DNA of 11,525 nucleotides from Sphingomonadaceae bacterium. Its GTDB lineage: Bacteria > Pseudomonadota > Alphaproteobacteria > Sphingomonadales > Sphingomonadaceae. The translations under genes were made by a program, and so were the position numbers. The notes beneath the pieces are model-generated. The model did not search any database and was not told where the DNA came from. It was given only the letters and a program-made list of their open reading frames with translations. How positions within the stretch are numbered: the first letter of the stretch is position 1; the number at the start of each line of letters is the position of its first letter. The stretch covers positions 1 through 11,525 of the forward strand of contig JAGREF010000219.1 in NCBI GenBank assembly GCA_020446665.1, given 5' to 3'. Positions 1-9,231 of this stretch are shown here, one piece after another.

Positions 1-426
1 GAGGGCAAGGAAATCCGCCGCATCTGGTCTGAACCCTTCTGGCTGCGCGCCTTTGCCGTCGGCGCGGTGGTCCAGATCCAGCCCAGCACATTCTTCCGCG
101 GCGATCTTTACCGCAAGACCGATGGGTTCGACGTGGATGACCGGGCTAGCTGGGATACCGGACTGCTGGCCAAGCTCCACCTTGCGGGTGGGCGATTCGA
201 GGTCATCGACGAATTCCTCAGCTACTTCAGGCTTTACGACGAGTCGATCACCGGCTCGGGCCGACTGCAGCAGATGCAGGTCGACAATATGATCGCCCGC
301 TTCGATGCCTTGATGGGCCGCCCCTATGACGCGAGTGACAAGCGCTATTGGCAGGCCATGCGCCTGTTCAAGCATCTGCGCTGGCCGAACCGGACGCTGG
401 AACGGCTGACCAAGGGCGCGATCTAA
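1..426 (+). CDS. Family 2 glycosyltransferase, C-terminal part (5' truncated)
   Basis: The reading frame is open from base 1 and ends at TAA (424-426), giving 141 residues without a start, so the gene begins outside the window. The visible part looks like the C-terminal half of a GT-A fold family 2 glycosyltransferase. It has the acceptor-side pattern QPSTFFRGDLYRKTDGFD at about residues 27-44, then RASWDTGLLAKLHLAGG at about 48-64, which resembles the usual 'D-x-x-L-W-x-R-L' block of these enzymes. Next come a typical 'FLSYFRLYDESITGSG' segment and a basic C-terminal tail. The nucleotide-sugar binding half and the DXD motif are not in the window, so donor and acceptor cannot be told. It lies at the edge of an exopolysaccharide locus and converges on the minus-strand glycosyltransferase next to it, overlapping by 4 nt. 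A role in surface polysaccharide assembly is inferred from this context. Confidence 0.8.
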   Translation, partial: EGKEIRRIWSEPFWLRAFAVGAVVQIQPSTFFRGDLYRKTDGFDVDDRASWDTGLLAKLHLAGGRFEVIDEFLSYFRLYDESITGSGRLQQMQVDNMIARFDALMGRPYDASDKRYWQAMRLFKHLRWPNRTLERLTKGAI

Positions 427-1421
427 GCCTGCACCTGCTTTTGAGCCTGCGCCCTTGCCGTGGCATCAAAGGCGCGCAGATCATGACCTGATGCTGCGCT
501 CAGCCGGTCGATCATTTCCTCGCGATCCTTCGCCCCTGCAAGTTCCCGCTCGAATTCATAGCGCTTGGCATCGACGAGGAAGCGATACCAGAAGCCCTGC
601 AGGAAATGATACACGAGCCCCGGCTTGCCATCGAGAAAGCCCAGCTGGATGAAATAACGATAGAGAAAATACCCCAGCGGCCCCACGCCCAGCGGCAGGC
701 GGTTGTAGAAATCGAGTTTCGTCTTGCGTTTGGACTTGGCCTGCCCGGTACTGGCAAGGCCCCGATCCTCGAACGGGTCGAACAGATCATGCTTGTCGAT
801 CAGCGCGTCCACCGCTTCGCGCGTGGCATAGCCATTATGCTTGGCGGTGAAGAAGGTCAGATCGTTGCGATTATCGTCGACGAAAGTCCCCTCGACATGG
901 ATCATCTGCCCGCTTTCGACGACGATATGTTCGTCCATCCAGCGCTGCTCGATCCGCCCCATGCCCGTGCGCCAAAGGCGCAGCAGCGTGAGCGGAAAGC
1001 GCCCGCCATGTTTGATCCAGCGGCCAAGGAAATGGTGCTGCCGGTCAAGGCTGATCGCGGTGACATCATCCGGCATACTCGCCAGCTTTTCGCGCAGCCG
1101 CTCGACCAGTTCGGGCCCGAACCATTCATCCGCATCGTGGCGCATGGTCCATTCGGTATCGATTTCGGTATTGTCGAGCGCCCACTGGAACTGGTCGGCA
1201 TAATTGACCCAGGCGCGCTTATAGACATCCGCCCCCAGTTCGGCGGCTTCCTCCGCCGTGCCGTCAGTAGAGCCCGAATCCACCACCACCACGCGCCGGA
1301 CCAGCCCGCGCAGGCTGGTGATGGCGCGCTCTATATGGAGGATTTCGTTGAAGGTGAGGATCACCACCGTCACTGATGGCGTATCCTGCTTGGGCGAATT
1401 GGATTGTGTAACCCCGGTCAT
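423..1421 (-). CDS. Family 2 glycosyltransferase, WaaE/KdtX-like
   Basis: A 332-residue cytoplasmic GT2 enzyme, expected to transfer a sugar from a nucleotide donor to a lipid-linked or core saccharide. The GT-A signatures are in order: VTVVILTFNE (17-26), VVVVDSGSTDGT (44-55), and the metal-binding DAD in MRHDADEW (93-100). The middle region HHFLGRWIKHGGRFP (129-143), LLRLWR (146-151) and WMDEH (161-165) follows the layout of WaaE/KdtX-type LPS-core glycosyltransferases. The C-terminal third (about 246-290) is aromatic and hydrophobic and may touch the membrane. The ATG at 1421 has only a weak AAGG ribosome site. A poor -10/-35 pair lies immediately upstream, so a leaderless transcript is possible. 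A hairpin separates the gene from the SGNH hydrolase gene upstream of it. The family call is firm; donor and acceptor are unknown. Confidence 0.9.
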   Translation of the reverse strand: MTGVTQSNSPKQDTPSVTVVILTFNEILHIERAITSLRGLVRRVVVVDSGSTDGTAEEAAELGADVYKRAWVNYADQFQWALDNTEIDTEWTMRHDADEWFGPELVERLREKLASMPDDVTAISLDRQHHFLGRWIKHGGRFPLTLLRLWRTGMGRIEQRWMDEHIVVESGQMIHVEGTFVDDNRNDLTFFTAKHNGYATREAVDALIDKHDLFDPFEDRGLASTGQAKSKRKTKLDFYNRLPLGVGPLGYFLYRYFIQLGFLDGKPGLVYHFLQGFWYRFLVDAKRYEFERELAGAKDREEMIDRLSAASGHDLRAFDATARAQAQKQVQA

Positions 1422-1429
1422 CGGGGGCC

Positions 1430-1457
1430 TTCATAGGCAGTGCTCGCCGCGATTCAA
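1430..1457 (-). promoter_or_regulatory. Weak sigma70-like promoter before the GT2 gene
   Basis: On the minus strand, TTGAAT (1457-1452), a 16-nt spacer and TATGAA (1435-1430) form a possible promoter, each hexamer matching the consensus at four of six positions. Only 8 nt separate the -10 from the ATG at 1421, so a transcript from here would start at or near the start codon. The position just downstream of a hairpin after the preceding gene makes an independent promoter plausible, but the match is poor. Confidence 0.28.
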
Positions 1458-1474
1458 ACGGGAAAGAGACAGGT

Positions 1475-1499
1475 GAGGCCGGATTTTCCACCCGGCCTC
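1475..1499 (-). terminator. Hairpin after the SGNH hydrolase gene, possible terminator
   Basis: Perfect 8-bp arms GAGGCCGG (1475-1482) and CCGGCCTC (1492-1499) flank a 9-nt loop, starting 8 nt beyond the TGA of the SGNH hydrolase gene. Downstream on the minus strand the sequence is pyrimidine-rich (ACCTGTCTCTTTCCC) but lacks a clean T run. It is therefore either a weak intrinsic terminator or a stabilising 3' hairpin at the end of the two-gene spike-like module. Confidence 0.5.
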
Positions 1500-1506
1500 C
1501 ACTGCA

Positions 1507-2976
1507 TCAGCCACGCCCGATCTGGCGCAAATGGTCCTTGAGCAGCACTGCATTGACAGTGCCGATGGCGATATTGCCATCCCGGTTGGGATGGAATGTG
1601 TCTGCGCTGACATAGTTATCGGCATTGCCCCAACCTGTCGGGGCCAGCTCATATCCTTGCCCGGTAGCGTAGGACGGGCCGACTTCTCGCACTGGCTCAC
1701 CCGCCGCATGGTCGTGGTTGAACACGCCATCAAAGCCAAAAACCTGCTTGCCGTTGATGGAGGTCTGGGCAGTCAGCGCCTTACGTTCCCGCGTTGCCCC
1801 GGTGCCGATTTCAACAGTCGCACCGATGCGTAGCTTGGTGCCAGGGTCGCTATTGTCGGATGCGATGCGAAAGCCTGTGGTGTTATCGACTGTTGCAGGT
1901 GTTCCGGAGTTGCCGGCGCGACCGGCTACAATCGGGTCCATCAGCGTTGCCCGTATGCCCACGGGCTCTCCCGCAAATTTCTGGGGCAATTCGAATGGCG
2001 ACATCCAGGCGCCACCAGCGGCAATAAAGGCTTGCCTTATCGCCTCGGCACGTTCGAAATTCTCCGCAAAGAGATATTCGAGCCCAAGCGAGATATTAAG
2101 TCCACCTGCGACCACCGCCTCGGGCAAGTGACGTCGGATATCATTGACGACCTGAGTCACGCTGTCGATCACTTCGCCTGTGTCATAGCCCAGGTCGTTC
2201 GCGCCCGCATGGATGAACACCACTTCCGGCCGATAGGCGATGATGTCGGACTGGACGCGCGCCGTGAAGGGAACCCGGTTGCCCAGCGCATCGGCGCGGA
2301 AGCCGCTGCCTCCGACGCCCGATGCCCAGACATCGTCCCAGCCCAGACCTTCGGCAAACCAGTTGGTCCAGCCATCCGCACCGGGGGTAGTAAAGCTGTC
2401 CCCCATGCAGATCGTGCGTGGTCCGCGGATGGGTGCCGCCCAAAGTGCGTCGGTCCAGCCGGTGCGCGCTTCGATGAAGCCCGCCTTGTACAAGATGATA
2501 TCAATCCGGCGGTGGCGGCGGCTGCCAAAGTCGATCAGGAAATGGTTGAACGTGCCCGGCGCGCCCATCAGGTCGAGTGTGATATATTCTCCATCGACCT
2601 TGACGTAAAAGCCGTCCTGCGTCGTGTGGAACAGCAATTCCAGCTGCGCGCCATCGTGATAGAAACTGATTTGCGCGCCCGCGGCTGAGCGTGTTCCCAC
2701 AGTCTGCGTGACCGTATCCGCTGGCACATAGGACTGGCTGGGTGGCGGAGAAACGCGCGGGATCGACCGGCTGAAGCTATACATTCCGCCGATGGGGAAT
2801 GAGGCAATCTGGTGGAAATTGGAGCCACTGGCCACTGGCCAACGCCGGGGCAGGCTGGGTGTTGCGGCAATCGTGACAGGCGGAGTCGGGTCCATGACTT
2901 TCGGCCCGTGGCTATCACGCGGCAGGGGCCAGGGGGCGATTGTGCGCTGCGGGCGCGGCACATGCAGCGCGCGCAT
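1507..2976 (-). CDS. SGNH/GDSL hydrolase with N-terminal beta domain; possible spike fibre or polysaccharide deacylase
   Basis: A 489-residue protein of the SGNH hydrolase superfamily (esterases and deacetylases). All four blocks are visible: MGDSF (191-195, nucleophile Ser194), GVGGSG (220-225, oxyanion Gly), GAND (258-261, oxyanion Asn260) and DTFH (459-462, Asp459 and His462). Residues about 92-185 form a beta-rich domain ending in IDIILYKAGFIEA, reminiscent of the jelly-roll that precedes the SGNH domain in CE2-type carbohydrate esterases. Residues about 352-430 are an extra beta-rich insertion between blocks III and V, ending in HDHAAGEPV. The N-terminus is proline-rich and basic, with no signal peptide or membrane segment. 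The ATG overlaps the stop of the preceding gene by one base (TGATG) and has no good ribosome site, which suggests translational coupling. It could be a phage/GTA-type receptor-binding fibre or a deacylase of the local polysaccharide. Fold call firm, role open. Confidence 0.88.
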   Translation of the reverse strand: MRALHVPRPQRTIAPWPLPRDSHGPKVMDPTPPVTIAATPSLPRRWPVASGSNFHQIASFPIGGMYSFSRSIPRVSPPPSQSYVPADTVTQTVGTRSAAGAQISFYHDGAQLELLFHTTQDGFYVKVDGEYITLDLMGAPGTFNHFLIDFGSRRHRRIDIILYKAGFIEARTGWTDALWAAPIRGPRTICMGDSFTTPGADGWTNWFAEGLGWDDVWASGVGGSGFRADALGNRVPFTARVQSDIIAYRPEVVFIHAGANDLGYDTGEVIDSVTQVVNDIRRHLPEAVVAGGLNISLGLEYLFAENFERAEAIRQAFIAAGGAWMSPFELPQKFAGEPVGIRATLMDPIVAGRAGNSGTPATVDNTTGFRIASDNSDPGTKLRIGATVEIGTGATRERKALTAQTSINGKQVFGFDGVFNHDHAAGEPVREVGPSYATGQGYELAPTGWGNADNYVSADTFHPNRDGNIAIGTVNAVLLKDHLRQIGRG

Positions 2977-3326
2977 CAGTCAAGCACCCAGGCGTCGAGA
3001 GTGGCAGTGGTGCCCGCAGAGACCAGCTGGCTAGTGGCAAAGGGCAGCATGGTAAGGCCGGGGTGGAGCGTGATGGCCAGCATCGAACCATTGGCCAACT
3101 CCATCTCCACCAGACCGCCGGTGATCACATCGGCGAGCAGCGCCTTGCCCGGAGCAATTGGCATATCTGGCAATAACGGGCGCACCCCGCGATAGGGCTG
3201 TTCCGCATTGGGCATGGGATTGTCCGGCGTGACCGGGTGCGCAATCTCCCCCTCAACCCCGGTGGCAAGTGCGGTGAGCGGGACGTAGCGCGAGGGATGA
3301 CGGATTACGGGTTCAGGATCAGGCAT
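2976..3326 (-). CDS. Small beta-rich protein, possible GTA/phage spike base protein (Rcc01079-like)
   Basis: A 116-residue protein. I chose the ATG at 3326 (MPDPEPV) because AAAGGAG sits six bases upstream; an in-frame start at 3359 would add 11 residues without such a site. The first half is proline-rich and looks unstructured. Residues about 60-116 form a run of short beta strands: KALLADVITGGLVEMELANG (61-80), then SMLAITLHPG, then LPFATSQLVSAGTTATLDAW (94-113). This order, a strand pair, a 'maximum-of-turns' Gly region and a C-terminal 'V-x-A-x-GTTAT' strand, recalls the spike base proteins of the Rcc01079 family that anchor head spikes on the R. capsulatus GTA. There is no signal peptide. 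It is translationally coupled to the SGNH hydrolase gene that follows, matching a base-plus-fibre pair. The family call comes from pattern memory only, so confidence in function is moderate; that it is a gene is likely. Confidence 0.6.
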   Translation of the reverse strand: MPDPEPVIRHPSRYVPLTALATGVEGEIAHPVTPDNPMPNAEQPYRGVRPLLPDMPIAPGKALLADVITGGLVEMELANGSMLAITLHPGLTMLPFATSQLVSAGTTATLDAWVLD

Positions 3327-3352
3327 GGGATTCTCCTTTCGAAGAGTCCCGC

Positions 3353-3367
3353 TAACCAATTTGGTTA
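3353..3367. promoter_or_regulatory. 15-bp palindrome upstream of the spike-like module
   Basis: Perfect 7-bp arms TAACCAA and TTGGTTA around a single T lie in the 60-bp gap between the GT4 gene and the small beta-rich gene, 26 bp before the latter's ATG. The gap is clearly AT-richer than its surroundings. No T-run follows on either strand, so an operator is more likely than a terminator. No regulator can be named. Confidence 0.4.
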
Positions 3368-3386
3368 TTTGTAGGAAAGTTGTTTT

Positions 3387-4601
3387 TTATTCCGGTACTT
3401 TTTCCGGGTGCCCAGATAGCTTTCCCGATGCTCCAAAAATGGCGAGAATTCGCTCTGCCACCCCATCCATCGTGAAGCGCTCTTCAAACAATTCCAGCCC
3501 GCGCGCGCCCATCGCCATGCGCTCTTCGCCCGACATGGCACTGAACCGGCGCAGTGCCTCGGCAAATCCCTCCACGCTGACGGGTGAGACCAGCCCGGCA
3601 TCAGCTTGCAGGATCTCGCCATGGATCTTCACCTGATCTGACAGGATGACCGGGCGGCTACAGGCCCCGGCTTCTGCCACGACCACGCCGAAATTCTCGT
3701 GATGCGACGGCAGCACCAGCGCTTCACAGCCATGCACGGCACCCCATTTCGCATCGCCGCGCACCATCCCGGCCCAGTGCACCCGGCCCGACGGGCAATG
3801 CTTGCTCTCGATAGAACGCAGGAGCTCGCCGTAGCTGCCATCGACCGGTCCTGCGAGCACAAGGTCAAGATCAGTCTCCGCCGCGATCCGTCCAAAGGCT
3901 TCGAGCAGGATATCAACGCCCTTTATTTCGGAAATGCGGCCAAGGAACAGCAGGTAAGGCCTGCTTCCCAGCCCCGGCACACAAGCGGCAAAGGCCTCGC
4001 ACATGCCATCGGCAAGGGCAGGCGGCGGGCTGGTGCCATAGCCGACCACCGCTTCGCGCATGTTCCAGGGCGAGAAGGTCGTCCGCGCCAGCTCACGCTC
4101 CAGTTCACAGGTAAAGGCGAGCGCTTCGGCTCCACGGCACAGCGGCCCTTCATTGAACTGCCACAGCACCTGCTTCATGCGGTGCTTGGCCGGGTCGCGC
4201 GTGCGGAACAGCGGGTCCAGCATGCCATGGCTGAAAACGATATAGGGCGTATCGCTCTTCGCCAGGCCCAGTCGCGCCGTTCGGGTTGCATAATTCCACA
4301 GCCCGTCGACGATGATTCCGTCATAGTCGGATGCATGTGTCGAAAGCCATTGCGGCGCCTTGGGAGAGCGCTTGGCCCAGCGAGCAATCCGGCCCAGAAT
4401 ACCCGGCAAGGCAGGCGGTGTGCTGCCCATGGCATGGACCTTCACCGGCGCGCTGTTGACCCACTCGTCGTCTGGCAGGTCAAGCGTAAGCAATTCCTGC
4501 TCATGCCCCATTGCGCGGAAGCTCTCTCCCAGCCGGAACACGCCTTCGATGGGGCCGCCGCTGCGCGGATCGGCGGTGGCGATCACATGCAGTATCTTCA
4601 T
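3387..4601 (-). CDS. Family 4 glycosyltransferase
   Basis: A 404-residue GT-B fold, retaining glycosyltransferase expected to add a sugar to a lipid-linked intermediate on the cytoplasmic face of the inner membrane. The start is the ATG at 4601, giving MKILHVIATADPRSGGPIEG, the usual GT4 first strand with a Gly-rich loop; the frame stays open upstream, but that stretch lies inside the preceding gene. The donor-binding half shows LLFLGRISEIKG (217-228) and SHHENFGVVVAEAGACSRPV (299-318), including the E-x7-E motif (Glu302/Glu310). The gene overlaps the Wzy-like gene by ATGA (4598-4601), so the two are translationally coupled. It ends at TAA (3387), followed by a 60-bp gap before the spike-like module. 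Linkage specificity cannot be read from sequence. Confidence 0.92.
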   Translation of the reverse strand: MKILHVIATADPRSGGPIEGVFRLGESFRAMGHEQELLTLDLPDDEWVNSAPVKVHAMGSTPPALPGILGRIARWAKRSPKAPQWLSTHASDYDGIIVDGLWNYATRTARLGLAKSDTPYIVFSHGMLDPLFRTRDPAKHRMKQVLWQFNEGPLCRGAEALAFTCELERELARTTFSPWNMREAVVGYGTSPPPALADGMCEAFAACVPGLGSRPYLLFLGRISEIKGVDILLEAFGRIAAETDLDLVLAGPVDGSYGELLRSIESKHCPSGRVHWAGMVRGDAKWGAVHGCEALVLPSHHENFGVVVAEAGACSRPVILSDQVKIHGEILQADAGLVSPVSVEGFAEALRRFSAMSGEERMAMGARGLELFEERFTMDGVAERILAIFGASGKLSGHPEKVPE

Positions 4602-5959
4602 TGCGCCGGGGCGTAGGGGGGATAGGCTGCCGGACGAGAGCGACGATTGCGTGCCAGCAATTCGCCCGGCCCGCGCTTCACCCGCGCCGCCTTGATGATG
4701 GCCAGCAAGGTCACGATTGCAAAGGCTGCTGTGAACCGTTCGGTTGCGCCAAAGGGCGAGAAGGGGATGTTCCAGACCATGGAAATGGCGAGCAAGGCCC
4801 CCAATGGCACCAACACCCGCCCGCGTTTCAGCAGCCAATAGGTCGCCACCAGTGGGATCGTGAAGGCATAGAGCCAGAAAATTGCGCCGAAAATGCCCGA
4901 TTCCACCCACGATCCAAAGAAATAGCTATGCGCCGGGATGCGGCGATCCTTCACATATTGCGTCTTGGGAAAATCAATCCCCCAGCGAATGCGCAGGGTC
5001 CGGTACATTTCCAGATATCGGCGATTCTTCGCCCAACTGCCATGGCCTAGAATTGGGGAATCCTGAATGGCAACGACCGAAATCAGCGACTCCGGGCGTC
5101 CGCCCAGCAGCAATGGCAAGTCACCGCCGGATTGTTTGCGATACTTTACCTGTGCGTCGCGCCCCAATGCGCCGGAATCTGCTGCATTCTCATATACGGT
5201 CGTAAGTATGCCCGTTGCCCCGATTCCGCCGATAAGCAGGAGCGCGAACATCCAAGGCTTCATCGCTTCGCGCGCATTGCCGAACTTGTTCAGGACGACA
5301 AATGCAAGGCAGACACCCGCCGTCATGGTGCTGATGGCAAAGGCCGAGCGTGCCACTTTGGTCAGCAGGAAAGCTGCGACCGCCAGGAAAATCAGCGGGG
5401 CGAATTCGCGCAGTGTGTTGGTCAAACGGGATGGCACGCTCAGCAGGCAGGCCGTGAACATCATCAGGCCCTGTGCATAGCCAAACTTCCACGGCGACTC
5501 GATGAAGTTTTCCGGCACGTTGAAGACCAGTGCGATCGACAGGCCGAAACCGAACGCGAGGATGTAATTTCGATCGCGGGGCAGGAACAGCCACAGCGCG
5601 CAGACCTGGATGGCGAAGAAGATGATCCGCCCCCAGCCGCGAAGGAAGTCCTCCATCGGGATGGAGCGGTAAATATCTGTGGCTACCTGGCACAGCAGCC
5701 ACAGCCCCATGAAAATCAGCAGCACTCTGATCTGCGCCAGTCTCTGGAGCGAGCCGGGCTGCCGGATCATGAAACCCAGCAGCACAATCCCGGCGAAGTC
5801 CATCAGATAAAGCTGGCCGCCCAGCTCAACCATCAGAAGCTGTGTCAGCGGATAGAAAAAGGCAATTACCAGCCAAGGATCAAATGTGATCCGACCGGGC
5901 GGAGCATAAATTTCCGGTGTTGTTGTCGCACCGGCAGGCTGGGGCTGGATCAGGCTCAT
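4598..5959 (-). CDS. Wzy/WaaL-type O-antigen/exopolysaccharide polymerase or ligase
   Basis: A polytopic inner-membrane protein of 453 residues with about ten or more hydrophobic segments spread over residues 28-425. A long, more polar stretch (about 257-345) fits the large periplasmic loop of the Wzy_C/O-antigen ligase family. That loop holds GGRPESL (286-292), SPILGHGSW (301-309) and IPAHSYFFGSWVESGIFG (341-358), motifs often seen in this family. Its role would be joining repeat units in the periplasm, or transferring polymer to an acceptor. It lies between two GT4 genes in one operon, which favours the polymerase role. I chose ATG 5959, 2 bp after the previous stop; a TTG at 5965 overlapping that stop by 4 nt (TTGA), with GGAG four bases before it, would add two residues and is a fair alternative. 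The C-terminus (about 427-453) is basic and proline-rich. Confidence 0.88.
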   Translation of the reverse strand: MSLIQPQPAGATTTPEIYAPPGRITFDPWLVIAFFYPLTQLLMVELGGQLYLMDFAGIVLLGFMIRQPGSLQRLAQIRVLLIFMGLWLLCQVATDIYRSIPMEDFLRGWGRIIFFAIQVCALWLFLPRDRNYILAFGFGLSIALVFNVPENFIESPWKFGYAQGLMMFTACLLSVPSRLTNTLREFAPLIFLAVAAFLLTKVARSAFAISTMTAGVCLAFVVLNKFGNAREAMKPWMFALLLIGGIGATGILTTVYENAADSGALGRDAQVKYRKQSGGDLPLLLGGRPESLISVVAIQDSPILGHGSWAKNRRYLEMYRTLRIRWGIDFPKTQYVKDRRIPAHSYFFGSWVESGIFGAIFWLYAFTIPLVATYWLLKRGRVLVPLGALLAISMVWNIPFSPFGATERFTAAFAIVTLLAIIKAARVKRGPGELLARNRRSRPAAYPPYAPAQ

Positions 5960-5961
5960 AT

Positions 5962-7185
5962 TCAATCGGCTCCGGCCGCCTCTTGCAATGCGCTGGCATA
6001 TTTGGCCAGCAATCTTTGCTTTGACCAGCGCTCCTGTGCCCGATTTGCAGCCATCTGTCCAAGCCTGTCTCGCTGCGTTTCATCATCTGCCAATGTCGCG
6101 ACCGCCCGTGCAAAGCTGGCCGCGTCGCCGGGCGGGGTTATCAGTCCGCAGCCATCAACCTCAGCAGCCAGCGCAGTGTCGGGGGCAGCGGTGGCCACAA
6201 CCGGACGACCTGAGGCGAGCATATTGGTCAGCTTGGAAGGCAGGACAAGGTCAGCAGCATCGGCGATTTGCGGCAGCAGGTGGATATCGGCAATTGCCAG
6301 TAATTCGCCCAGCCGGTCTCGCGGTTGGAGCGGGCGCAGATGGAGATTGTCGAGCCCGGCGGCCTGTTCTTCGAGCATGGCCCGGCCAGACCCATCCCCA
6401 CAGACGACAAAATGCAGCTTTTCCCGGGATTTCAGCTCACGCGCTGCCTCCGCAATCAGTCCCACACCCTGCTTCAAGGCCAGATTTCCGGAATAAAGAG
6501 CAATCTGCCCGTCCGGGAGGCCAAGTTCCGCGCGCAGCGTGCTGCCGTCAATATGCGGGCCGACACCCTCGGCTTCTGCCCAGTTACGCAATTCCAGGGA
6601 GTGCGTTTCCACAGCACCCTTGGCACGTGCCTTGGCGAGCATGGGTTGGGATATGGTGCTGACCCGGTCAAACCGGCTGATGATCGCCCGCTCCACCCAT
6701 CCTGCCAGCCGCGCCATCGGGCCACTGGACAGCAAGCCCGTAGCCAGGGCCGCCTCCACTTCGAAATCCTGGATATGCAGCCAGCTGGCAGCCCCCGCTT
6801 TGCGCGCAGCATGCAGCGCCACTGGCGCAGCAAGCAATGAGGGTGCGATGGTAAAGACCATATCCGGCCTGAATTCCCGCGCCGCCCTCCGGGCAGGCCG
6901 CAAGGCAAAAAGCCCGAATGACAGATGGTGTATGATTCGTTTGATACCCGATGGATTGGCCGGAATGTAATGCCGCACCCGTGTGACCTGCACCCCCTGC
7001 TCAAGCGATTCGCCGCCCGGCGGAGCGAATGACACCGCCAGTTTCCAATCCGGGTAATAGGGATTGCCGACAATAGCCCGCACTTCGTGGCCTGAAGCCG
7101 CAAGTGATTCGGCCAGGCCAGCGGTGTAGGGACCGATTCCAATCGGCTCTGGCGCGTAATTGAGTCCCAGGATTAGAATTTTCAC
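5962..7185 (-). CDS. WcaI-type family 4 glycosyltransferase
   Basis: A 407-residue GT-B glycosyltransferase resembling WcaI of colanic acid synthesis. The start is GTG at 7185, preceded by AGGA seven bases upstream and giving (M)KILILGLNYAPEPIGIGPY, the characteristic WcaI-like N-terminus. The longer frame to 7251 adds a cysteine- and arginine-rich leader that looks non-coding. Other family features are GHEVRAIVGNPYYPDWK (32-48), SWLHIQDFEVEAA (134-146), YSGNLALKQG (231-240), VVCGDGSGR (260-268) and LVLPSKLTNMLASGRPVV (313-330). It is the first gene of the minus-strand operon with the polymerase and second GT4. Upstream is a divergent gap shared with the small exported protein and carrying the 19-bp element. 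In E. coli WcaI is assigned as a fucosyltransferase; that substrate should not be assumed here. Confidence 0.92.
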   Translation of the reverse strand: MKILILGLNYAPEPIGIGPYTAGLAESLAASGHEVRAIVGNPYYPDWKLAVSFAPPGGESLEQGVQVTRVRHYIPANPSGIKRIIHHLSFGLFALRPARRAAREFRPDMVFTIAPSLLAAPVALHAARKAGAASWLHIQDFEVEAALATGLLSSGPMARLAGWVERAIISRFDRVSTISQPMLAKARAKGAVETHSLELRNWAEAEGVGPHIDGSTLRAELGLPDGQIALYSGNLALKQGVGLIAEAARELKSREKLHFVVCGDGSGRAMLEEQAAGLDNLHLRPLQPRDRLGELLAIADIHLLPQIADAADLVLPSKLTNMLASGRPVVATAAPDTALAAEVDGCGLITPPGDAASFARAVATLADDETQRDRLGQMAANRAQERWSKQRLLAKYASALQEAAGAD

Positions 7186-7372
7186 GCTACCATCCTGCCG
7201 CAAGCGAAGTGAGCAACTGCAGCAAATCGGCTTCTTTCGGCCCCTTCTCACAACCTTTCGTTAAGCAAATCAACCTATTTGCCGTATCGGACCTACGGAA
7301 ATGCCCGTAATTTTTCCTTGACGGGACAATGCTGCATGTGCACAAACGGGATTGACCAATGGAGGTAGCGCG
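7186..7372. promoter_or_regulatory. Divergent intergenic region between WcaI-type GT gene and small exported protein gene
   Basis: This 187-bp AT-richer gap must serve both flanking divergent genes. It contains the 19-bp element CGGAAATGCCCGTAATTTT (7296-7314), a TTGACG hexamer (7318-7323) three bases after it on the plus strand, and a perfect 8-bp palindrome TGTGCACA (7337-7344). A convincing -10 is not visible at the standard spacing from TTGACG (the bases there read CACAAA). On the minus strand no strong promoter is evident either, so expression may depend on an activator. Confidence 0.5.
7296..7314. repeat. 19-bp element, copy 1 (putative shared operator)
   Basis: Sequence CGGAAATGCCCGTAATTTT matches the copy at 9284-9302 at 17 of 19 positions, differing only at the two central bases after CGGAAA. 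Seen from the minus strand it contains a loose inverted repeat, GGAAA...TTTCC. It lies 110 bp before the GTG of the WcaI-type gene and 58 bp before the ATG of the small exported protein gene. Confidence 0.5.
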
Positions 7373-7594
7373 ATGAAAAAGATTCTTGCACCGGTACTCG
7401 CTTCGGCGATGCTGCTCGGTACGACTGCGGCGCAGGCGGAAACCCGTCCCGCTGAAGTCCGTTTTTCCCAGCCCGTCACTGAAGAGAATAATCTCGAAGG
7501 TGAGGAAGTATTCCTGGTGATTTTCGCAATTGCTGCGGTGATCGCTGGCCTGATCTTCGCTTTTGACGGCGGCAACGGCAACAGCCCGACCTGA
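7373..7594 (+). CDS. Small exported bitopic membrane protein of unknown function
   Basis: A 73-residue protein. The ATG at 7373 is preferred over one at 7352 because GGAGG lies seven bases upstream and because it opens a classical signal peptide: MKK, a hydrophobic core, then AQA at 20-22 with probable cleavage before Glu23. The mature part is short: an acidic linker (residues 34-45, with EENN and EGEE), one hydrophobic helix (46-64, VFLVIFAIAAVIAGLIFAF) and a polar tail DGGNGNSPT. After cleavage the linker would be periplasmic and the tail cytoplasmic. It is the only plus-strand gene inside the exopolysaccharide locus and has its own terminator. Small proteins of this layout are familiar to me near sphingomonad polysaccharide genes, but I know of no assigned function. 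A helper or regulator of the envelope machinery is speculation. Confidence 0.82.
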   Translation: MKKILAPVLASAMLLGTTAAQAETRPAEVRFSQPVTEENNLEGEEVFLVIFAIAAVIAGLIFAFDGGNGNSPT

Positions 7595-7836: not shown

Positions 7837-9231
7837 TCAAAAAGCGCGATCGTGCACCAGCACACGCAACGTGCGGAATACGATGCGCAGGTCGCCCCAC
7901 AGGCTCCAGTGCGAAATATATTCGAGGTCTGACTGCAGGCGCCGTGACAGGTCGATCTCTTCATCCGTTGCCCCGCGGAGCCCCCGCACTTGCGCCAGCC
8001 CGGTGAGGCCCGGTTTGAGTGAGTGGCGATGCCAATAGCGGCCATCCACTTCCCAGAACAATTTGTCCCCCGCCTGCGAGCCCAGCGCATGCGGGCGTGG
8101 CCCCACCACGCTCATCTCGCCTTTCACCACATTGATCAGCTGTGGCAGTTCATCAAGGCTGGTCCGGCGTAGAAAGTTCCCTACCCGTGTGACCCGGTCA
8201 TCATCCTTGCTGGCCGAGCGATTGCCATCGGCATCGCCAAGTTCCACCCGCATCGACCGGAATTTGTACATTTCAAAGAAGCGATTGCCCTGGCCCAATC
8301 GTCGCTGGATGAACAGCACCGGCCCCCGATCCTCCAGCTTGATGGCGAGCGCAATCAACAGCAATAGCGGTGCGAAAACCAGCAGCGCGGCCCCTGCTGA
8401 CAGCACGTCAAACAGCCGTTTGGCAATCCGCGCTCGCAAGCCCAGTGGGCCAATCGCCACCACCAGCCCGGTCTTGCCCAGGGCTTCGTAGCGGTTGACC
8501 CCGACGACACCCATCAACTCCGCAGTGGCACTGATCACTTCGCCATGCACCCCCGCTGCGCGCAATACAAAGGACCAATGCTCACGCCGTTCAAATGGGC
8601 TGGAGACAATCACCTGATCCTGGTTGGCCAGGTAGCGCCCCAGCCGGTCCAGCGCATGCGGATCCTCCATTGAAGGCACGAGGCCGTGTTCGGCCGCATC
8701 GATATGCATCGCATGGGGCAAATGGAATTCCGGCCCGCCATCATCAATCACCAGGATGTTGCGAACTGACGGCCCCCAATTCCGACGAACCAGCCGAATG
8801 GCGAGGTCACGCATCCCGGCCATGGAGAGGCCGGCAAATAGCATGCCAAGCGTGAAAGTGCCCCGAGAAAAGCTCTCATTCGACTTGGTATAAAAAGCGA
8901 TGAAATTGAGCAGGGCAGCGGAGATCACCAGAGCCGCGACCATCCGCCAGATGGCATAGTGGCGCTCAGACAGCGCGCGAATGGAATAGCAGGACTGGTA
9001 CAGTGCAATCGTGAGATATAGCGGCAGCAATAGCTGCGCTTCGATCAGGGCGCGGTTGTTGGGCAATTCCCCAAGATAAAGCCATTCTGCCAATCCGAAG
9101 CCGCCCAGAATGCACAGGCAGTCAGCTAGCAAGAGGTAAAGATATGCGCGCAGCCGTCTGCGCTCCAGTGACGGAACGAGAGGCGCCTTCGATCGGGCGG
9201 CCAGGGGCAGCGGTTCAAATGGCGCATTCAT
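7837..9231 (-). CDS. Polyprenyl-phosphate sugar-phosphate transferase (exopolysaccharide initiating enzyme, GelB/SpsB/WbaP-like)
   Basis: A 464-residue PNPT that would transfer a hexose-1-phosphate from a UDP-sugar to undecaprenyl phosphate, the first step of repeat-unit synthesis. About four hydrophobic segments lie at 29-52, 64-84, 93-115 and 121-143. A soluble, nucleotide-fold-like middle domain follows (about 156-250), then a membrane helix at 276-298 after KRLFDV (271-276), then the catalytic domain. The catalytic domain shows RGPVLFIQRRLG (302-313), MYKFRSM (321-327), TSLDELPQL (357-365), SVVGPRP (374-380) and LKPGLTGLAQVRG (405-417). The architecture and length match bacterial polyprenyl glycosylphosphotransferases such as WbaP and the sphingan starter enzymes. 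The ATG at 9231 lacks a ribosome site (the upstream bases read CTCCTT), yet no better start is present. The upstream gap has an inverted repeat and the 19-bp element. Glucose or galactose specificity cannot be told. Confidence 0.95.
   Translation of the reverse strand: MNAPFEPLPLAARSKAPLVPSLERRRLRAYLYLLLADCLCILGGFGLAEWLYLGELPNNRALIEAQLLLPLYLTIALYQSCYSIRALSERHYAIWRMVAALVISAALLNFIAFYTKSNESFSRGTFTLGMLFAGLSMAGMRDLAIRLVRRNWGPSVRNILVIDDGGPEFHLPHAMHIDAAEHGLVPSMEDPHALDRLGRYLANQDQVIVSSPFERREHWSFVLRAAGVHGEVISATAELMGVVGVNRYEALGKTGLVVAIGPLGLRARIAKRLFDVLSAGAALLVFAPLLLLIALAIKLEDRGPVLFIQRRLGQGNRFFEMYKFRSMRVELGDADGNRSASKDDDRVTRVGNFLRRTSLDELPQLINVVKGEMSVVGPRPHALGSQAGDKLFWEVDGRYWHRHSLKPGLTGLAQVRGLRGATDEEIDLSRRLQSDLEYISHWSLWGDLRIVFRTLRVLVHDRAF

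Follow-up and report, generated by a model that had tools for sequence, protein, structure and literature searches.

A contig from a Sphingomonadaceae bacterium raises the question of whether the head spike of a gene transfer agent (GTA) can be encoded among the genes for the polysaccharide to which it would bind. This contig (JAGREF010000219.1 of assembly GCA_020446665.1; 11,525 nucleotides, hereafter the window) is one whole contig of the draft genome G000, which comprises 2.37 Mb in 448 contigs and is 77.5% complete. It contains two overlapping genes that a preliminary description had read as a possible GTA or phage head-spike module, consisting of a base resembling the Rcc01079 type and an SGNH hydrolase. 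In the GTA of Rhodobacter capsulatus (RcGTA), the spike genes adjoin the capsule genes and are co-regulated with them, and the fibre binds the capsule (PMC10218006). We favour the view that the pair in the window probably forms a capsid head spike through which gene transfer particles would attach to the cell's own polysaccharide and probably de-esterify it.

Results

A coupled gene pair conserved in polysaccharide loci

The open reading frames of the pair are as follows:

2976..3326, minus strand (read from 3326 to 2976): spike-base-like protein, 116 aa from its ATG, with a low-confidence N-terminal arm (residues 1-45) and a C-terminal beta domain (46-116)
1507..2976, minus strand (read from 2976 to 1507): SGNH/GDSL (CE2-like) protein, 489 aa, the proposed spike fibre (Pfam, PHROG, alignment, model)
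2974..2978, minus strand: TGATG stop/start overlap of both genes with one shared base (2976), read from the sequence and kept in relatives

The positions and the TGATG coupling were confirmed as first described, and so was the exopolysaccharide setting, since the flanking genes are polysaccharide genes. A scan of positions 1380-3480 gave one promoter-like site (mean of shuffled sequences, 0.7) and no terminators (shuffled mean, 1.7), and thus no sign that the pair is a separate transcription unit. No RNA families were found across the window.

Among 298 genomes of the family, the SGNH gene was detected (E <=1e-10) in 11, belonging to 5 of 96 genera; the gene of G137 is only partial. A contig scan yielded six loci, three of which were taken to be those of G065, G037 and G221, resulting in 14 loci of distinct genomes, the window included. 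The base gene is located directly before the SGNH gene, in the same order, in all 14 loci. The two genes overlap by one base in 13 of them and by four in L025; this count takes the SGNH start at the conserved N-terminal Met, and in six cases the automatic start lies five codons upstream (gap -16). Every locus also contains at least one polysaccharide marker, which in L025 amounts to one sugar-nucleotide gene plus a glycosyltransferase. The gene order WcaJ-WcaI-(Wzy)-GT4-pair-GT2, where GT stands for glycosyltransferase family, is common to 11 of the 14 loci, with Wzy not found in L024. The short contig L018 keeps WcaI-GT4-pair-GT2, and L017 and L025 are other polysaccharide loci. That the pair stays together, and with polysaccharide genes, is an observed step of the reading that we favour, and it supports the conservation that the preliminary description had proposed to check. 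None of five GTA markers was found within the 14 loci.

The small protein resembles the RcGTA spike base as a divergent sister

The 116-aa protein has no Pfam match. Compared with the NCBIfam model NF048002 ("spike base protein, RCAP_Rcc01079 family"), it scored 19.3 bits (E 1e-3, residues 67-113), which is below the curated cut-off of 28 bits, and for this reason we file it as a divergent sister and not as a member. Its AlphaFold model is of low confidence and is beta-rich at residues 46-116, in line with the preliminary description, with a predicted jelly-roll fold like that of Rcc01079. Foldseek placed the RcGTA spike base Rcc01079 at rank 1 among 350,542 PDB chains, at a modest E-value and with many non-viral rows in the same list. 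Another fold match is the spike base of phage Carin1 (8cjz_h), which also has a profile match to the curated spike bases; unlike the window base, it is part of a phage capsid and has 92 aa. The RcGTA base, as PDB chain, has 84 aa. A profile-profile comparison with the spike base gave an E-value of 8e-5, a weak match, and in the spike-base tree (89 columns, many open forks, L025 excluded) the small protein stands on its own long branch. A protein search with it retrieved one near copy. A sequence search against PDB returned FtsI, which reached 6e-4 when the profile was used, along with further unrelated chains; all of these were taken as chance matches. These analyses support placing the small protein beside the RcGTA head-spike base as a divergent sister; of the likeness to Rcc01079 first proposed, the resemblance stood and membership of the curated family did not.

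The family score under the cut-off, the Foldseek list with its modest E-value and non-viral rows, and the low model confidence would also fit a chance jelly-roll likeness, in which an ordinary SGNH hydrolase has an unrelated beta-sandwich partner. We regard this as unlikely, as the NF048002 match, the profile-profile comparison, the first-ranked fold, and a gene order and setting like those of the curated spike pairs all agree.

A CE2-like SGNH fold and a conserved N-terminal peptide in the large protein

The 489-aa protein matches Pfam Lipase_GDSL_2 (E 5e-12, 47.1 bits; cut-off 32.9), as expected for the SGNH hydrolase that had been named, and PHROG 9703, "head decoration" (E 5.9e-9). It consists of an N-terminal peptide, a beta domain, and an SGNH fold with an insertion (about residues 340-440) ahead of the DxxH block. 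An alignment of 23 SGNH sequences revealed the following conserved positions:

2395..2397, minus strand: codon of the presumed nucleophile S194 (GDSF block), invariant
2194..2199, minus strand: codons of N260-D261 (block III), invariant
1591..1602, minus strand: codons of D459 to H462 (DxxH block V), D459 and H462 invariant
2950..2976, minus strand: codons of the N-terminal peptide MRALHVPRP, with A3, L4, P7 and R8 conserved at 86-95%

Thus, S194, N260, D459 and H462 are invariant, and the Ser, Asn and His of the catalytic blocks are all present. The model of the protein has a mean predicted local distance difference test score of 81.6, and each of its first five fold matches in PDB is either a CE2 enzyme or Est2A, an acetyl xylan esterase (template modelling (TM) score 0.30-0.37 on the query). 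In the predicted structure, the beta domain precedes the SGNH fold, as in CE2 enzymes (e.g., 2waa, 2wao), to which the window protein adds the N-terminal peptide, the inserted stretch and the coupled spike-like partner. Among viral models, it matches a protein of Bacillus phage Mater over 482 columns (TM score 0.58). The likeness to these SGNH proteins (Mater, PHROG 9703), which are phage-encoded, is one of fold and profile, with an identity of about 27%.

The conserved N-terminal peptide precedes a variable stretch. In RcGTA, the fibre is held by its N-terminal peptide, residues 2-10 of which dock in the base pentamer (PMC7296036). By analogy, MRALHVPRP is a proposed base-binding anchor; it differs from the RcGTA peptide and is without the Leu-Gly repeat.

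The preliminary description would have given up the spike reading for a pair that always occurs with signal-peptide-bearing enzymes, and this is not what we found. When the first 40 residues were scanned for hydrophobicity, a crude test, none of the 14 SGNH proteins showed a signal-peptide-like stretch. The maxima were at most 1.67 for the SGNH proteins and at most 1.62 for the bases, except for L017 (2.02); those of two exported-looking proteins of the window were 2.2 and 2.4. An ordinary secreted polysaccharide esterase is set back by this lack, as judged by the crude scan, and by the spike-like partner.

Viral relatives of the SGNH protein

Distant relatives of the SGNH protein were found in seven viral contigs. 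In four of these (L155, L156, L157 and L159), the gene is located beside terminase, portal or major head genes, and in L154 after the tape-measure gene; L153 and L158 stood outside the PHROG family scan. In Enterobacter phages, the SGNH protein of L025 matches proteins whose annotation is head outer capsid or head decoration. In L159, a 122-aa gene without PHROG match (7189-7557) overlaps the SGNH gene by one base, like the pair in the window, and may encode another kind of spike base.

The presence of SGNH relatives among viral head genes would fit a pair that belongs to a phage or prophage and serves phage particles rather than a GTA. So would the curated bases that lie, read by eye, amid phage-like genes (L056, L062) or with a GTA-like capsid, portal and terminase (L060). 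We consider this explanation highly improbable: the chromosomal gene order is conserved across genera, the small protein has no match in 50,697 phage records, and the five GTA markers are absent from the 14 loci, the flanks of which were not scanned for phage genes in general. A prophage remnant is likewise set back by the conserved locus.

Curated spike-base genes occupy two genomic addresses

NF048002 spike bases are present in 9 of 385 genomes of the class and in 50 of 298 genomes of the family (47 above the cut-off). We classified 45 of 55 NF048002 rows (E <=2.4e-14, 43 genomes) by their surroundings, leaving out ten weaker ones that include G037, which is of the window's type. Twelve loci contain GTA capsid and portal genes, 25 contain a polysaccharide marker, eight contain neither, and none contains both. 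At least two kinds of polysaccharide marker were found in 20 loci and a single kind in L092, L098, L106, L107 and L121. In the 12 GTA-cluster loci (L096, L099, L104, L108, L109, L110, L112, L113, L114, L116, L118 and L126), the spike base lies directly behind the GTA capsid gene, at a distance of 87-185 bp. The capsid marker, taken from L026, matches Rcc01687 of RcGTA at 2e-85. Polysaccharide markers were present in none of 20 control windows, which were placed at a fixed, non-random offset of 500 kb from the spike locus (p 5e-6; p 1e-4 for the strict count). Part of the marker set came from L057, L058, L061, L063 and L016. Two of these, L057 and L058, also belong to the 45 classified loci and so are matched by their own sequences. 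In the tree of bases, with its few columns and open forks, the polysaccharide location requires at least five changes forced by well-supported branches.

At the class level, 5 of 10 loci (L057, L058, L059, L061 and L063) contain Pfam-supported polysaccharide genes; L057, L058 and L059 are counted both here and in the 45. In two loci of another family (L054:9337-9597 and L055:9054-9314), a spike base and a long downstream gene were observed; the stretch read contains neither GTA nor polysaccharide markers, and both genomes have a GTA-like portal elsewhere. A gene near these spike bases looks like murA.

The base of the curated pairs is usually followed by a long fibre gene, and their polysaccharide setting in 25 of 45 loci is like that of the window pair. 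In L104, L105, L110, L129 and L131, automated reading detected no such gene after the base. Unlike the window's SGNH protein, the seven curated fibres scanned have no Pfam match, and many start like MxxxGFGFG; such Gly-rich hydrophobic starts are frequent in both settings (MGRLGFGFG in L094, polysaccharide; MFGFGF in L108, GTA cluster). PHROG gave one weak match only for five other fibres of exopolysaccharide loci. The two types also differ in that 12 of 45 curated genes are located in a GTA cluster, compared with none of 14 of the window's type. Because 14 of 14 pair loci and 25 of 45 curated loci have a polysaccharide setting, we conclude that a spike next to the genes of its likely receptor recurs widely.

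Association of the pair with GTAs

The assignment of the pair to a GTA, proposed in the preliminary description, is indirect. It draws its strongest support from the curated spike genes, which in this family lie either within the GTA cluster or close to polysaccharide genes. Several results weigh against it. No GTA gene was found in the pair's own, incomplete genome (77.5%, 448 contigs); a same-genus genome (G065) has a GTA structural cluster. Co-occurrence was analysed in the 277 genomes that were at least 90% complete and no more than 5% contaminated. The GTA capsid gene was present in 7 of 10 pair carriers and in 179 of 267 others (p 1.0), i.e., at the background rate. For both spike types at polysaccharide loci the counts were 26 of 35 versus 145 of 224 (p 0.34), and for genomes with a strong NF048002 match 34 of 43 versus 152 of 234 (p 0.08). 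A simple dependency of the pair on a GTA thus received no support. TIGR02217, read by eye, was positive in 37 of the 43 strong NF048002 genomes. The GTA status of single genomes was also read by eye, with at most six capsid candidates scored per genome, so that misses are possible; G076 and G102 have TIGR02217 and no capsid row. Use of the pair by a GTA is plausible and unproven.

Eight near-complete carriers of a polysaccharide-locus spike have no GTA capsid match and no good TIGR02217 match: G002, G015 and G137 of the window's type, and G041, G079, G243 (TIGR02217 at 2.9e-12), G257 and G286 of the curated type. GTA-like remnants were found in six of these eight, covering both spike types, a count made among carriers only. 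In G041 the portal is interrupted by three in-frame stops, G286 and G257 retain pieces with stops, and G243, G002 and G015 show partial megatron matches; no remnant was found in G079 and G137. The G041 portal is partial (C1:1320949-1321578), in a genome that is rated 100% complete and has an open polysaccharide-locus spike pair. GTA loss may therefore postdate the pair. In G002, the frames of the pair are intact and its pairwise dN/dS (ratio of nonsynonymous to synonymous substitution rates) is 0.09-0.18, compared with 0.11-0.20 for its neighbours, with synonymous sites near saturation.

This retention without an intact GTA, with dN/dS similar to that of the polysaccharide neighbours in the one genome tested, would also be expected of a domesticated, particle-free tailoring module, i.e., a former phage spike that now serves as an O-deacetylase for the polysaccharide of its own locus, either inside the cell or once the cell has lysed; the small protein would be its assembly or binding partner. 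The lack of association with GTA presence, the constant position within one polysaccharide gene order shared by 11 of 14 loci, the CE2 acetyl esterases as best PDB fold matches and the invariant catalytic residues are consistent with it as well. We consider it possible but rather improbable, as the crude scan leaves no obvious route to the polymer, the partner resembles a virus spike base whose curated relatives occur inside GTA clusters, and the remnants in six of eight carriers may mean that the missing GTA was lost later.

Neighbouring genes in the window

The polysaccharide genes around the pair are listed below:

423..1421, minus strand: family-2 glycosyltransferase, downstream neighbour (Pfam scan)
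3387..4910, minus strand: family-4 glycosyltransferase, upstream neighbour (open frame; true start probably near 4600)
4598..5965, minus strand: Wzy/O-antigen-ligase-like protein (Wzy_C 31.0 bits, marginally below the cut-off of 31.7)
5962..7251, minus strand: WcaI-family glycosyltransferase (NCBIfam scan)
7837..9231, minus strand: WcaJ/EPS-type polyprenyl glycosylphosphotransferase (Pfam and NCBIfam scans)

Going upstream from the pair, the order is thus family-4 glycosyltransferase, Wzy-like protein, WcaI-family glycosyltransferase and WcaJ-type initiating transferase. Farther upstream lie genes that, by eye, we take to be holA, lptE and leuS; the holA-like one has no Pfam match. Between WcaJ and WcaI, the opposite strand (7373-7594) encodes a 73-aa protein that begins like a signal peptide and is hydrophobic in its C-terminal part; it has BLAST relatives close to the same genes in L013, L022, L023 and L024.

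Discussion

Like the RcGTA head spike (base Rcc01079/GhsA, fibre Rcc01080/GhsB), the pair in the window combines a small, predicted jelly-roll base with a second protein, encoded at the genes of a surface polysaccharide. It differs in the partner, a 489-aa SGNH/CE2-like protein compared with a fibre of 325 residues. In 12 genomes of the family, the curated spike base has another address than in R. capsulatus, where its locus is separate: it immediately follows the GTA capsid gene. Phages are reported to carry relatives of both RcGTA spike genes (PMC8601537), and ectopic GTA loci have been discussed (PMC13420450). Our search by title and start of abstract, which left most subscription journals uncovered, found no paper that places head-spike genes in a polysaccharide locus of any organism but R. 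capsulatus, nor one on such genes in Sphingomonadales. Three features are new relative to the literature searched: a spike pair with an SGNH protein, a divergent clade of bases, and the occurrence of the family's spike genes at either of two addresses.

If the pair forms a head spike, the base would sit as a ring on the capsid vertices, where its low-confidence N-terminal arm may contact the capsid. The conserved N-terminal peptide of the SGNH protein could dock into this ring, as residues 2-10 of the RcGTA fibre do. The SGNH domain would then deacylate the polysaccharide that the neighbouring genes produce, or might do no more than grip it. A spike encoded in the polysaccharide locus would keep receptor and receptor-binding protein matched and co-inherited. 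More tentatively, the esterase-tipped GTA head spike could be a cassette in the operon that builds its receptor, lock and key moving together between strains; spike genes of the family may move back and forth between capsule loci and the site that follows the GTA capsid gene, which would make kin recognition by gene transfer particles heritable and swappable.

An esterase-type spike would give the particle a way through the slime of its own producer. The recurrent arrangement, together with the alternative slot in the GTA cluster, makes it testable why some GTA parts lie off the main cluster, with receptor matching as the candidate reason.
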